From a virus: a stretch of 32,413 bases of DNA. Each line of letters opens with the position of its first letter. Position 1 is the first letter of the stretch. The translations under genes and the position numbers were made by a program. The notes beneath the pieces are model-generated. The model did no database searches and had not been told where the DNA came from. It saw nothing but the letters and a program-made list of their open reading frames with translations. Of the stretch, positions 4,056 through 30,899 are shown piece by piece. The DNA is taken from positions 1 to 32,413 of the IMG/VR virus record IMGVR_UViG_3300044574_000066. One strand, written 5' to 3'.

Positions 4056-6600
4056 AAAGCGCGTCGCCCTCTCCATCGACCAGCTCTACGCCGACCGCGA
4101 CCTGTACTTCCAGTCATGCCTCAAGATCGTCCCCAAGAACGCCTCGGGCCTCGTTCCCCTCGTCATGAAAAAGGAACAGCGACGGCTCGCCGAGGTCATC
4201 GACCGAGAACGCCGAAACGGACGCGCCCCCAAAATCGTCATCCTCAAGTCCAGACGAGTCGGAGCGTGCCTTGATCCTTCGACGCGGGTGCTGACGGACG
4301 ACCTCCGCTGGGTGCCTTTGTCCGCAATCGAGCCCGGCCAGACGATTCTCGCCACAGACGAGAATATCCCGGGCGGTAAGGGCGGGAGCAGGAAGATGCG
4401 CCGCGCAGTCGTTGAAGCCAAACAACACGTCATCGGCAACGTGCTGAGAATAACCACGGACCGAGGATGCATCCTCGCCACCCCCGACCACAGATTCCTC
4501 GTCTATCGCGCAGGCATGTACCGATGGAAGAAGGCGGCCTCACTACGACCCGGGCAAGGACTACGGTTCCTCACCGAGCCGTGGGGAGAGCCTGATTCCG
4601 AGGACGGCTGGTTCGCTGGGATGATGGACGGGGAAGGCTGTCTGCGTGGCAATGAGAACCGCAGGACTGGCACCGAACTGAGCATCACGCAAAACGAAGG
4701 CCCCGTGTTCGACCGGGTGGTCGCATACCTGAACCGGCACGCGGTCCACTACAAAGACGACATGCGCGAGGCCACAACAGTCCGCAAGAGATGCCATAAG
4801 GCCGTGTGTTGCCGCACGGACGAACTGCTTGGGTTGGTCGGGCGCTGCCGGCCGACACGGTTCACTTCCCAGGCGTGGTGGGCAGGCATCGAACTTCCCG
4901 GAAAGAGAACCGGCAACCGTCCCGTTGCGAAAATACTCACCATCGAACGCCTGCCGCAAGCCGTGATGATCGACCTCCAAACCTCAACCAGAACATTCAT
5001 CGCCAACGGCTTTGTTTCTCACAACAGCACCTTCGCCGAGGCTGAACTGTTCCGCGAATGCCACCTGCGGGACCACAAACGCGCCCTCGTCGTCGCCCAC
5101 GAACTCGATAGCGCCCAGACCATCTTCGACATGAGCCAGCTTTTCTACGACGAACTGCCCGAAGGCATCAAACCCCCCACCAAATACCTCACCAAGAAAC
5201 TCATCAACTTCGCCCACAACGGCTCCCGAATGCAGGTCGTCGTCGCCGGCGAAGCCCGCGGCTATACCGCCCAGTACGTCCACATCTCCGAACTCGCGTT
5301 CATGGAAAACGCCGAACAACTCATGACCGCAATCCTCCACACCACCCCCGACGACCCCGAATCACTCGTCATCGCCGAATCCACCCCCAACGGCATCGGC
5401 AACTACTTCCACAACCTGTGGGTCAACGCCGTCGCCAAGAAGAACGACTGGGTACCATTCTTCTCCCCCTGGCACGAGGACGAAACCTATCGGATGAAGC
5501 CGTGGTTCGAGGCCAAAGACCTGTCCCCACACGACGCCCGAGTCATGGCTGACCACAAACTGGACCTGTACCAGATGGCCTGGTACATCAGCACCCGAGA
5601 GAACAAATGCAACGGCGATCAAGACAAGATGGACCAGGAGAACCCGTCCGACGCGACCACCTGCTTCCTCGCCTCCGGCCGCAAAGTATTCGACGGAGAA
5701 GGACTCCAGCACTGCCTCGATACCGCCGCCGCCGCCGAAGCCGCCGGGGAAATGCCGCCCGAGTGCGAGATCGACCGCAACCCGCTCGATAAGAAATCCC
5801 CCACCATACGAGCCGTTCGCCGAGGTCGCTGGCGCATCTACCGAGAACCCCAACGACGACACCGCTACGTCGCCGGCGTCGATACCGCCTCCGGTGACCC
5901 CGGCGGTGACTACACCCCCATCGTCATGCTGAACCAACACACCCTCGACGTGGACGCCGTTTTCTACGGGAAACTCGCCCCCGACCTGCTCGCATGGGAG
6001 TCCGCCTACGCCTGCTGGTGGTACAACACCGCCACCGTCGCAGGCGAAGCCAACAACCAAGGCGTGCTCTACTTCGACGAACTCATACGCCGCGTGAAAT
6101 ACCCCAACGTCTACTACCGTACCGTGGACGAGAAGTCCGTCTACGGGAAGGTCGGAGACAAGCCCGGCTTCTGGACCTCCGAGGCCAACCGAACACCCCT
6201 GTTCAACCTCGCCCGCCGTTACGTCCGCGAAGCCCCCACCCGCGCCTCCGGACGCTGTATCGACCCCTCCATCCTGAAAGAGTTCTCCGAACTGTTCTAC
6301 GACGACGCCAACCGAGTGGATCACCCCAAGGGTGGATACATGGACGCCACCAGCGCCATCTCCCTCGCGCTCTACGTCCACATGGGCAGCTACGAGGCCA
6401 CGCTGGAACCGCTGTCGCTTGAAAGCGCCACGAAGGCTGTTACCATCCACCGCGAGAACTTGGCCCGCAGGAGCATGGGGTTGGCCGACAAACCGTTCGA
6501 TATCGGCGTCCTCACCGGCGACGATATCCAGAAACTGGATGATCTAGAAACCCGCCGCACGGACTCCCGAAAACGCAGCGGGCTCGGAGGATACCGATGA
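4045..6600 (+). CDS. terL: terminase large subunit with in-frame intein
   Basis: This is the ATPase/nuclease motor that packages DNA into the prohead. The frame starts at GTG 4045 and encodes 851 residues, or 598 after removal of the intein at residues 75-327. The split P-loop is KSRRVGA plus ST (Walker A). Later come a Walker B-like strand with catalytic Glu (VHISELAF, E416), a coupling motif (AESTPNG) and an RNase H-like nuclease beginning YVAGVDTASG (D613), with a further acidic position in GGYMDATSA (D767). Numbers include the intein. All expected motifs are present, so the spliced enzyme should be active. Splicing is required for ATPase function because the insertion divides the nucleotide-binding loop. 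It overlaps both neighbours. Confidence 0.95.
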   Translation: MASKKRVALSIDQLYADRDLYFQSCLKIVPKNASGLVPLVMKKEQRRLAEVIDRERRNGRAPKIVILKSRRVGACLDPSTRVLTDDLRWVPLSAIEPGQTILATDENIPGGKGGSRKMRRAVVEAKQHVIGNVLRITTDRGCILATPDHRFLVYRAGMYRWKKAASLRPGQGLRFLTEPWGEPDSEDGWFAGMMDGEGCLRGNENRRTGTELSITQNEGPVFDRVVAYLNRHAVHYKDDMREATTVRKRCHKAVCCRTDELLGLVGRCRPTRFTSQAWWAGIELPGKRTGNRPVAKILTIERLPQAVMIDLQTSTRTFIANGFVSHNSTFAEAELFRECHLRDHKRALVVAHELDSAQTIFDMSQLFYDELPEGIKPPTKYLTKKLINFAHNGSRMQVVVAGEARGYTAQYVHISELAFMENAEQLMTAILHTTPDDPESLVIAESTPNGIGNYFHNLWVNAVAKKNDWVPFFSPWHEDETYRMKPWFEAKDLSPHDARVMADHKLDLYQMAWYISTRENKCNGDQDKMDQENPSDATTCFLASGRKVFDGEGLQHCLDTAAAAEAAGEMPPECEIDRNPLDKKSPTIRAVRRGRWRIYREPQRRHRYVAGVDTASGDPGGDYTPIVMLNQHTLDVDAVFYGKLAPDLLAWESAYACWWYNTATVAGEANNQGVLYFDELIRRVKYPNVYYRTVDEKSVYGKVGDKPGFWTSEANRTPLFNLARRYVREAPTRASGRCIDPSILKEFSELFYDDANRVDHPKGGYMDATSAISLALYVHMGSYEATLEPLSLESATKAVTIHRENLARRSMGLADKPFDIGVLTGDDIQKLDDLETRRTDSRKRSGLGGYR
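4267..5025 (+). other. intein (253 aa) with LAGLIDADG-like endonuclease motif
   Basis: The segment begins with Cys (CLDPSTRVLTDD, block A), has the block B signature TPDHRF with its conserved His 75 residues in, and ends FIANGFVSHN followed by extein Ser, giving the His-Asn/Ser junction of a class 1 intein. In the middle is WFAGMMDGEGC, one LAGLIDADG-type endonuclease motif with its acidic residue at about intein position 121. Removing it restores the terminase P-loop as GAST. All visible splicing residues are intact, so self-splicing is expected. Only one endonuclease motif was seen, so the nuclease may act as a dimer or be degenerate. Confidence 0.93.
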
Positions 6601-28219: not shown

Positions 28220-28236
28220 GAAGTGGCCCTTGTAGT
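28208..28236 (+). promoter_or_regulatory. possible promoter for the recombination genes
   Basis: TTGAAA (28208-28213) and TGTAGT (28231-28236) are 17 bases apart. The -35 is good, the -10 mediocre. The start would fall near 28243, so RNA would include the whole interleaved repeat structure ahead of the next gene. Confidence 0.35.
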
Positions 28237-28265
28237 AAGCGCGAGGCGGGTCTAGATTGCTTCGT

Positions 28266-28359
28266 GCAGGGGGTGGACACACGAGACTGGGAGCGGTGGT
28301 GGATTCGCCCGAGCAGATCACCCCCTGCGAGTGCGATGAAGCCGCCGTTCCCAGTCTCG
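28266..28359 (+). ncRNA. candidate pseudoknot RNA: interleaved inverted repeats
   Basis: Stem 1: GCAGGGGGTG (28266-28275) with CACCCCCTGC (28319-28328), 10 bp, perfect. Stem 2: 28282-28299 with 28342-28359, 18 bp including two G-T pairs; its outer eleven pairs (CGAGACTGGGA) are perfect. The strands are in order 1-2-1'-2', so both together form an H-type pseudoknot with joining segments of 6, 19 and 13 bases. Stem 2 ends 7 bases before the ribosome site AGAGG (28367-28371) of the next gene. No known family recognised. Confidence 0.65.
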
Positions 28360-28380
28360 CTTTCGTAGAGGTACCGAGTC

Positions 28381-28680
28381 ATGCCGGAAGCCCGCAAGAT
28401 TGATCCAGTGGTCGGCCGCAACTCGGCCGGCCAGATTGTGATGGACGTGACGCATTCCGAGAGCCCCGCAATCAGTCTGCGGGTGGTGTTCTGGAACCCC
28501 GAGGACGTGTTGCGGCTCGCGGATGTACTCGCGGAGCACGGCAACGACGACGAGTCGAACGACCGCGCGTACCCGGAACTGCGCGGCTCCGAGGACCGCG
28601 ATGACGCCGTGGCGTCGCTTGTGCGCGACACGCCGAGCGGCGGAAACCTGCTGCACACTCGCGGGGGGGCGCCGCGATGA
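28381..28680 (+). CDS. hypothetical protein (99 aa) before the RecT-like gene
   Basis: ATG 28381 lies 9 bases after AGAGG, directly downstream of the pseudoknot-like element. The first half is beta-like (GQIVMDVTHSES, AISLRVVFWNPEDVLRLADVLAEH), the second is acidic and low in structure. No motif recognised. It overlaps the RecT-like gene as ATGA and is probably its regulator or partner; it is the first target of any control by the folded leader. Confidence 0.65.
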   Translation: MPEARKIDPVVGRNSAGQIVMDVTHSESPAISLRVVFWNPEDVLRLADVLAEHGNDDESNDRAYPELRGSEDRDDAVASLVRDTPSGGNLLHTRGGAPR

Positions 28681-30065
28681 CCACGGCTCTGACGACGCAA
28701 CCCGCGTTCCCGGGCGGGCAAGAGTTGACGGACATGCGGAACGCCGCCGCTCTCATCGCGCAAAGCGCTCTCGTGCCCGAGGCGTTCCGCGGCAAGCCCG
28801 CAGATATCATGGTCGCCATCCTGACCGCTCGCGGCCTCGGCCTCGACCCGATGGTGGCTCTCCAGAAGGGCTATGTGGTCAAAGGCAGGTTCGATGTTGA
28901 GGTGAGCGTCAAACTCGGACTCATCCAGTCGCGCTTGCCGGACTTCGACTACGAGGTGATCGTGTTGGACGATGACCGCTGTGTGGTCGAGGGTGGCCGG
29001 GCGGGGAAGAACAAGGCGCGCTCCGAGTTCACATACCTACAGGCCGTGGCAGCCGGGCTGACCACTGGCAAGTATGGACCGACGCCGACATGGCAGTTCT
29101 ACCGGCGCGATATGCTGCTCAATCGCGCGCTCGGCCGCGTGCTCAAACTGACGTGCGCGGCGGCGCTCTACAACATGCCGGTTATGCTGGACGAGCCGGA
29201 CTTCGCGGACGACAACAACGCCACGACTGTAGCGCCCGTCCGCCCCGCGAGCGGCGCCGAGGTGGTGGAGGACGGCCCGGCGACTCCGGCGCCGACTCCG
29301 CCACCGGCGCAGGTCGTCGAGGCGTCCCAGCCGGTTCCTGTGGACTGGAAGGGCCGCCTGCTTCGCGCAGTCGCAGCCTGCTACAAGCGCACGCCGCCCG
29401 GAACCCACAAGAACTCGTACCAGGCGTGGGCCAAGGCGAACATGGAGCAGATCATGTTCCTTGCGAACGCCTTCTACCAGTCGGTCGGGGAGCCGGAGGT
29501 CAAGGGGTGGATTTCGGTCCCGCCGATGGACTGCGAGCGCATCGCGCTGTGGGTCGAGGCGCGCAACGAGAAGCGGGAGGGAACGGAGGGCTTGCCCTCT
29601 GGCGGCACGGACGCCGCCCCCTCCCAAGCCGTAGAGGACGCGGGCAACACGGATGACGCCCTGGCAGGTGCGCCCGTGGGGGCGAGCATGGCCGCCCCGC
29701 CCGCGTCAGAAGCAGAACCGCTCGTCGAGGATGACGGCGATGACAGGTGGCCCGAGAGCGAGCCGGAGGCCGAACCGGGCTACGTTGCGCTCTCCAAGCG
29801 AGGCCCGGATGTTCTCGTGACGGTGCTGCTCAGGTGCCGCGCCGCGACCAAGAACCTGGTGGCGTATGTGCTCAAGGCGGAGCGGTCTGGGAGGTATCAG
29901 ATCACGCACTCAGAAATCCTCAAATCTATTGGGAGCGTAACCGCAACTGGCACAGCGCAGAGCATGTGGCTGGTGGACGCGGCGAAGAATGACGGGCTCT
30001 GGCTGATGCTGTGCAGGGCGGTTGCGGACGAGGCGACGCGGCTCAAGGTGGATTACCTGAACTAG
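28677..30065 (+). CDS. RecT-like single-strand annealing protein with C-terminal extension
   Basis: The first 190 residues match the RecT family of phage recombinases: LIAQSALVPEAFRGKPADI, then LTARGLGLDPMVALQKGYVVKG, VKLGLIQSRL and a W/F-rich helix with an ML..RALGRVLKL segment. These proteins pair single-stranded DNA with complementary strands in phage recombination. The remaining 270 residues are unusual: a Pro/Ala linker, a helical domain around residues 220-300 (WKGRLLRAVAACYKRT), an acidic Ala/Pro/Glu linker and a final domain (LVTVLLRCRAATKNLVAYVLKA). The function of that extension is unknown. No exonuclease partner is visible in the window. Confidence 0.72.
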   Translation: MTTALTTQPAFPGGQELTDMRNAAALIAQSALVPEAFRGKPADIMVAILTARGLGLDPMVALQKGYVVKGRFDVEVSVKLGLIQSRLPDFDYEVIVLDDDRCVVEGGRAGKNKARSEFTYLQAVAAGLTTGKYGPTPTWQFYRRDMLLNRALGRVLKLTCAAALYNMPVMLDEPDFADDNNATTVAPVRPASGAEVVEDGPATPAPTPPPAQVVEASQPVPVDWKGRLLRAVAACYKRTPPGTHKNSYQAWAKANMEQIMFLANAFYQSVGEPEVKGWISVPPMDCERIALWVEARNEKREGTEGLPSGGTDAAPSQAVEDAGNTDDALAGAPVGASMAAPPASEAEPLVEDDGDDRWPESEPEAEPGYVALSKRGPDVLVTVLLRCRAATKNLVAYVLKAERSGRYQITHSEILKSIGSVTATGTAQSMWLVDAAKNDGLWLMLCRAVADEATRLKVDYLN

Positions 30066-30069
30066 ATAA

Positions 30070-30136
30070 TATCGGACGGGTGTACGCTGGTGGAGGCTGT
30101 ACGCGCTTCGTATAACCGCTGGCGGCCCGCCCGATA
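30070..30136 (+). promoter_or_regulatory. leader stem before the coiled-coil gene
   Basis: TATCGGACGGG (30070-30080) pairs with CCCGCCCGATA (30126-30136), 10 of 11 positions, enclosing TACG/CGTA (30100-30103 with 30109-30112). TGTACGC appears twice inside (30081-30087 and 30098-30104). The fold ends 8 bases before the ribosome site of the next gene. Confidence 0.45.
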
Positions 30137-30155
30137 CCTACACTGGAGGGATGCA

Positions 30156-30899
30156 ATGAGCGGTGGAATGGTGAAGGTGGACCCGGTATCTGAGGCTGTT
30201 TCAGCTATCCTGCTGGGTGAGACGGGTAAGGTGGCCGAGGGTATTCTGGTGAGCGTGAGCACGGGTTGGCGCATTGCCACCGTGGAGGACCGCTCGCAGG
30301 CGAGCGATACGCTCTCGCTGCTGCGCCGCAGCGCCAAGCGCGATGCCGAGGCGCTGACCGAGGCGTTCCGGCCCGTGAAGGCGCGCATGGAGTCACTGGG
30401 GGGTCCTGTGAAGGCGCGTATCGCTCGCTGCGAAGCGGGCGCGGCTACGGTCGAACGCGAGATGCGGCGTTGGGACTCCGACGTTGAGGCAAAGCGGCGC
30501 GAAGCCGCTCGCATCGCTCAGGCCGAAGCGGACGCCGCGGCCAAGGAGGCCGCCGAGCAAGCAGCCTTGCTCGCTGACGACGATGAACCGCTCGCCCCGG
30601 CACAGGTGGTCATCCCGCAGGCCGAGAACATGGTGCGCGGGGCGGTCGGAAAGGACCACAAGACCCGGCGCACTCGGGCCGCCGAGATCGTGGACATCTC
30701 GGCCATCCCGGCCGAGTGGCGGCACCTGGTTGTGCTCGACAAGGCGGCAGCGAAGGCAGAATACGACCTGCTCGTGAAGCGCGGCACGCTCGAAATCCCG
30801 CCCGACTTAGACCCCGATAATCCTCTGGCGGGACAAGGCCGAGTGGTTGGCGGTATCCGGTTCGTTTCCGACGTGTCGTACACCAGTGGGAGGGCGTGA
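30156..30899 (+). CDS. coiled-coil protein next to RecT (247 aa)
   Basis: ATG 30156 follows GGAGGG (30145-30150), so I prefer it to the GTG at 30090. The protein has a helical N-terminal domain (SEAVSAILLGETGKVAEGILV), a long charged coiled coil at about residues 60-150 (RRSAKRDAEALTEAFRPVKAR, then repeated Ala/Glu/Lys stretches) and a C-terminal domain with HLVVLDKAAAKAEYDLLVKRG. Similar proteins beside RecT-type recombinases are often annotated only as domains of unknown function. A partner of the recombinase or a host-nuclease inhibitor is possible, but neither is shown. Confidence 0.65.
   Translation: MSGGMVKVDPVSEAVSAILLGETGKVAEGILVSVSTGWRIATVEDRSQASDTLSLLRRSAKRDAEALTEAFRPVKARMESLGGPVKARIARCEAGAATVEREMRRWDSDVEAKRREAARIAQAEADAAAKEAAEQAALLADDDEPLAPAQVVIPQAENMVRGAVGKDHKTRRTRAAEIVDISAIPAEWRHLVVLDKAAAKAEYDLLVKRGTLEIPPDLDPDNPLAGQGRVVGGIRFVSDVSYTSGRA

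Follow-up and report, generated by a model that had tools for sequence, protein, structure and literature searches.

A probable RNA pseudoknot leader ahead of a phage recombination operon

Positions 28264 to 28359 of the window (the whole stretch of DNA analysed, an IMG/VR virus record of 32,413 bases) probably encode a conserved RNA pseudoknot which forms the 5′ leader of the recombination-operon mRNA and acts in cis. A rough probability of 0.55 was assigned to this reading. The leader would most likely control the operon at the mRNA level, through translation or stability. Sequence comparison revealed interleaved stems, covariation, a location on the gene-sense strand and a position 16–21 nt before the first start codon. 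If the reading is correct, this compact RNA of about 120 nt, whose pairing covaries among uncultivated phages, would be a second leader pseudoknot for phage recombination, unrelated to that of T4 gene 32 and much larger.

No nearby record was found in the phage collection. The + strand genes of the window include a P22-like portal gene, an intein-split terminase gene and the gene of a 1,886-aa protein without a PHROG match. An M15-type endolysin gene and two small lysis-region genes, also on the + strand, are followed by a gap and then by the recombination genes (a 99-aa gene, a RecT-like annealing protein gene and an exonuclease-like gene, in this order). In the terminase large subunit (4267–5025), the in-frame intein lies within the Walker A motif (SRRVGA/C...HN/STFAEAE); the same site is uninterrupted in the terminases of relatives G001, G002, G003 and G005. 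The features of the operon are as follows.

28368–28371 (+): GAGG, ribosome site of the first operon gene (from the sequence)
28381–28680 (+): first operon gene, 99 aa, no family
28677–30065 (+): RecT-like single-strand annealing protein, 462 aa (PHROG 561, E 3.6e-13)
30090–30899 (+): exonuclease-like gene (PHROG 10477, E 8e-9); the ATG at 30156 is probably the true start

Two interleaved inverted repeats had been reported in the gap by the initial annotation. They were recovered at exactly the coordinates it gave, and the GAGG at 28368–28371 begins 8 nt past the end of the second.

28266–28275 (+): stem 1, 5′ arm, GCAGGGGGTG (sequence, covariation)
28282–28299 (+): stem 2, 5′ arm, CGAGACTGGGAGCGGTGG (sequence, covariation)
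28319–28328 (+): stem 1, 3′ arm, CACCCCCTGC, within the apical loop of the stem 2/3 hairpin (sequence, covariation)
28342–28359 (+): stem 2, 3′ arm, CCGCCGTTCCCAGTCTCG (sequence, covariation)

Stem 1 is made of 10 Watson–Crick pairs, plus a U-G pair at 28265/28329. Stem 2 is made of 16 Watson–Crick and 2 G-U pairs, plus a U-G pair at 28300/28341, and is included in the longest close inverted repeat of the whole window. The element is single-copy in the window. Helices in the order 1-2-1′-2′ were searched for with a descriptor and scored by summed stacking energy, which was −70.7 kcal/mol for the window element. This value was reached by none of 300 dinucleotide shuffles of the whole window (best −64.6) and, when the gap alone was shuffled, by none of 8000 (best −47.1). 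The pair is thus far stronger than chance would give, a chance origin having already been judged hard to accept in the initial annotation, and GC content is no explanation.

Relatives were retrieved from IMG/VR using the TerL query minus its intein. Terminase identity to the window was 66% for G001, 62% for G005 and 53–54% for G002 and G003. The G005 record ends before the region, and no RecT was found in the 10.7-kb fragment G002. IMG/VR scans with RecT alone, the portal, the holin-like protein or the exact stem sequence gave no relative, nor was a close relative found in the genome contigs searched. Matches of the region obtained by blastn in phages and plasmids were short (E >= 0.5) and were taken as chance. 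In G001, whose RecT is 58% identical to that of the window, the gap ahead of the operon contains TGCACGGGGGTA...TACCCCCGTGCA interleaved with CGAGAACGGATGTGCTGG...CCGGCGCATCCGTTCTCG, in the same place as the window element.

Covariation in relatives, which had been named beforehand as a check on the element, was observed for both stems in G001, the closest relative. Column by column, the comparison covers two sequences only (window and G001): stem 2 shows 5 double compensatory changes and 2 one-sided changes (to or from G-U), with 0 of 18 pairs broken. When substitutions were made at random with the same base count, the 18 pairs were retained in none of 400,000 sets. The counting tool gave 97.9% of stem 2 cells as paired, compared with 27–52% once the partners were slid. 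Stem 1 of G001 has one inserted C-G pair and one G-C to A-U change at the stem top. Compensatory changes, by which a conserved structured RNA is recognized, were thus present in both helices of the window and G001, and the topology was seen again in G003 and G036. Since the relatives retain the knot while the letters change, a working RNA is indicated. The sequence-only covariance model matched the element only in G001, where a weak second full-length match falls in coding sequence. A short reading frame within the element (MKPPFPVSLS) was rejected; it is not retained, its ATG being ACG in G001.

A short third stem and an internal loop were predicted inside stem 2.

28301–28303 (+): internal loop GGA, opposite GAA at 28338–28340, possible tandem G-A pairs (both sides identical in G001; stacking putative)
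28305–28308 (+): stem 3, 5′ arm, TCGC (predicted fold; GTCGC/GCGAC in G001)
28333–28336 (+): stem 3, 3′ arm, GCGA (predicted fold; GTCGC/GCGAC in G001)

Stem 3 has 4, 5 and 10 bp in the window, G001 and G003, respectively, and stems 2 and 3 combined make up about 22–24 pairs. Because of this short stem, the 3′ arm of stem 1 is located in the apical loop of a long hairpin. The internal loop between stems 2 and 3 is GGA/GAA (plus one base per side) in the window and G001, and GA/CACGA in G003; in all three, its bases could stack as tandem G-A pairs. The joins measure 6/19/13 nt in the window, 4/21/11 nt in G001 and 5/19/15 nt in G003. According to a simple geometric estimate, stem 1 (10–12 bp) placed alongside the hairpin would, with the join of 4–6 nt, just span the hairpin length. 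The pseudoknot would therefore be tight yet possible, and stem 3 would be the likeliest part to give way.

The initial annotation had proposed a pseudoknot or a two-state switch. Covariation bore out the conserved structured RNA; no observation calls for the switch half. In such a switch, stems 1 and 2 would be mutually exclusive, alternating in the course of transcription or on binding of a factor, and ribosome access would be altered. Stem 1 can be complete while stem 2 has still to be transcribed, threading would be tight with stem 3 formed, and the nested folds without stem 1 have a similar predicted energy, all of which would suit alternating stems. By inspection, however, neither state blocks the ribosome site. 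There is no conserved alternative pairing, and the joins are similar in three phages, as a single fold would require. A single three-dimensional fold would account for these similar loop lengths no less well than a switch, and alternation of the stems was considered improbable. A simple on/off switch, in which the 5′ arm of stem 1 would pair with the first gene's own ribosome site, was also discarded: G003 alone shows this pairing, in its nested fold.

G-U pairs are kept in stem 2 of all three related copies (window, G001 and G003). As such pairs form only in the gene-sense RNA, the RNA was placed on the gene-sense strand. On the opposite strand they become A-C mismatches, which argues against a DNA-level element, that is, a cruciform used as a replication origin or as a packaging or recombination site. 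Strong inverted repeats at the boundary of the lysis and recombination genes would be in keeping with such a site, but interleaved arms are no help to a cruciform and the position is fixed relative to the ribosome site, so that very little credence was given to it. A self-cleaving ribozyme of the HDV-like nested-pseudoknot type was judged extremely improbable as well. HDV-like ribozymes have their main helices in the same 1-2-1′-2′ order from the 5′ end, and the 5′ end here would lie at stem 1. However, stem 1 has 10–12 bp and not the 7 bp of their P1, the separate P3 and P4 hairpins and the catalytic core are missing, almost nothing would lie 5′ of a cleavage site and no Rfam match was obtained, even at E up to 10.

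Related phage DNA was searched with the descriptor (1.13 Mb, then 1.65 Mb). A Streptomyces repeat array aside, the strongest interleaved pairs were those of G001, the window, G036 and G003. The more distant relative G003 and the unrelated phage G036 have the same topology with independent sequence, and for each of them 0 of 8000 gap shuffles matched the native element. The pseudoknot topology proposed for the window as a structured RNA thus recurs in two further phages, in the same place relative to the operon. All four elements are directly upstream of a ribosome site and start codon (stem-to-start distances of 21, 16, 20 and 18 nt in the four phages) and every operon contains recT. This gene is first in G003, second in the window and G001, and second after a recE-like gene in G036; the first gene encodes 99 aa in the window, 136 aa in G001, RecT in G003 and a RecE-like protein in G036. 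Zero nucleotides separate the stem 2 5′ arm from the stem 1 3′ arm in G036, whose element may be convergent rather than homologous. Because the loci were fetched via TerL or RecT, the association with recT is partly a matter of sampling. No comparable leader was found in eight recE-type regions of cultured phages (first two operon genes). If the pseudoknot is indeed a leader, its recurrence ahead of recT operons would point to structured leaders as a way of controlling single-strand annealing proteins that has been adopted more than once. The Streptomyces loci beside RecT relatives (L082 6404–6578, − strand; L081 6359–6497) carry repeat arrays with many overlapping inverted repeats of the GGGACACTGA type.

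A candidate promoter and operator had been placed just upstream of the element. For the operator, no evidence was found. The promoter is plausible, with a −35 region conserved in G001, and weak, a strict consensus promoter scan of the window having found none.

28220–28232 (+): conserved GAAGTGGCCCTTG, upstream/−35 part of the likely promoter (identical in G001)
28230–28235 (+): putative −35-like hexamer TTGTAG (17-nt spacer to the −10-like hexamer; same spacing in G001)
28253–28258 (+): putative −10-like hexamer TAGATT (sequence inspection)

GAAGTGGCCCTTG is present, identical, upstream of the element in the window and in G001. One further exact copy is located ahead of another operon of G001 (L069 13502, − strand, corresponding to G001:13490–13502), together with the −10-like TATCCT; the minus-strand gene behind it has a leader without a comparable pseudoknot. 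Every copy is followed by a −10-like hexamer, 16–17 nt from the TTG hexamer, which suggests that GAAGTGGCCCTTG is a promoter motif common to the phage group. No clear promoter was found in G003. In the window, the transcript would be expected to start at 28264–28266, at the first bases of stem 1. At 28240–28266, CGCGAGGCGG/TTGCTTCGTG could form a hairpin beside stem 1 if transcription began farther upstream; this possible hairpin includes the candidate −10 hexamer.

For the cis-acting leader, the following mechanism is proposed. The transcript made from the promoter at 28230–28258 would start at the 5′ arm of stem 1; on forming, this stem would tie the extreme 5′ end of the message into the apical loop of the hairpin that stems 2 and 3 form. 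Thus folded, the leader would hide the 5′ end from end-dependent decay and a rigid structure would be held beside an open ribosome site. The leader may also be the site where a phage nucleic-acid-binding protein limits translation, RecT, common to the four operons, being a candidate. The first gene varies while the leader persists, which fits operon control better than control of a single gene. A cis-acting mRNA leader is further favoured by the constancy of the leader, the 16–21 nt to the start codon and the ribosome site lying outside the stems. An intrinsic terminator was ruled out, the GC-rich hairpin having no run of U behind it: CTTTCG follows stem 2, and a terminator scan of the window found none.

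By analogy with HK022 put, the nascent RNA could instead bind the host RNA polymerase and help it to resist pausing or termination along the recombination operon. The put RNA is likewise a structured RNA at the start of a phage early transcript and does not need a particular downstream gene (PMC9378689). The present element is predicted to be the first transcribed part of its operon, as putL is, and its first gene is exchangeable. However, put consists of two adjacent stem-loops of about 70 nt that act on RNA polymerase, rather than of the interleaved helices of a pseudoknot (PMC9378689). A constant short distance to the start codon would be unneeded for action on the polymerase and no downstream terminator was identified; an effect of this kind is a main alternative to the cis-acting leader but was regarded as unlikely.

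The initial annotation knew of no named family with this layout, and Rfam likewise gave no match: searches at the gathering threshold and with E values allowed up to 10 returned nothing beyond microRNA models of the long-hairpin type and chance matches. In the literature searched, no such leader ahead of recT genes was found. The RNA is new relative to Rfam and this literature; its kind, the phage leader pseudoknot, is already known from gene 32. To our knowledge, T4 gene 32 is the only phage recombination gene with a well-studied pseudoknot by which it is controlled at the RNA level. In an early operon of lambda, the N-leader RNase III hairpin is likewise long and directly precedes the ribosome site of the leading gene; it resembles the present leader in this respect and differs from it in having no pseudoknot.

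The pseudoknot of T4 gene 32 is acted on by gp32 (PMC535899), in the manner suggested above for RecT or another phage protein that binds nucleic acid. Like the present element, for which the transcript start is a predicted one, the T4/RB69 gene 32 operator is a 5′ untranslated pseudoknot ahead of the gene of a single-strand nucleic-acid-binding recombination protein, and its sequence varies among phages (PMC535899). Unlike it, the gene 32 pseudoknot has about 28 nt, compared with about 96 nt here, and is followed by >40 nt of little-structured UUAAA/UAAA repeats (PMC535899), whereas 16–21 GC-rich nt with no such repeats are found here; moreover, recT is the first gene only in G003. The STAXI motif (RF01728) is also a pseudoknot RNA near genes of DNA-handling proteins such as SSB, but it is made of two or three tandem pseudoknot repeats and belongs to Enterobacteriales (PMC2864571). 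The present element is single-copy and has no Rfam match.

A further role was considered post hoc for the strand in the apical loop (the 3′ arm of stem 1). As an antisense regulator, it would block other genes of the phage by pairing with their ribosome sites, and the 5′ arm of the same stem would serve as a built-in competitor copy of the target. The 5′ arm has an exact copy at the ribosome site of the G001 exonuclease gene and at two start sites of G003 (those of an ATPase-like gene, PHROG 249, and of a 162-aa gene), so that the loop strand is a perfect 13–14 nt antisense there. Among random 27-mers from other GC-rich phages, used as the comparison set, equally long exact complements of start sites were rare (59/12,000 for G001 and 21/12,000 for G003), and the own genome ranked first of 25 for the loop strands of the window, G001 and G003. 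However, the targets differ among phages, and neither the window (exact over 10 nt) nor G036 stands out from the random 27-mers. Judged by pairing energy, 18–44 of 480 random genomic 27-mers perform equally well. Since the loop is C-rich and resembles an anti-Shine–Dalgarno strand, matches at ribosome sites are also to be expected. One possible target was noted in the window.

28656–28668 (+): CACTCGCGGGGGG ahead of the start of recT, able to form 13 pairs (one of them G-U) with the loop strand; a weak candidate target

By energy, this site at the recT start is the best in the window; 14 of 480 shuffled loops scored as well, as did 18 of 480 random genomic 27-mers. Antisense pairing of the loop strand is suggestive as a post hoc reading of the sequence, and regulation by this route was held to be doubtful. 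Equally tentative is a new class of two-way phage leader, in which the 5′-end pseudoknot would cap the recombination mRNA and the loop strand could instead pair with the ribosome sites of other genes. If true, its targets would be the G001 exonuclease gene, the two opposite-strand genes of G003 and recT in the window, and leader synthesis would tune the remaining programme. In G003, an 18-nt start region, AGGAGGACTTGGGAATGA, is common to two genes (20403 and 23095, + strand, corresponding to L074 403 and 3095), one ATPase-like (PHROG 249) and the other unknown.
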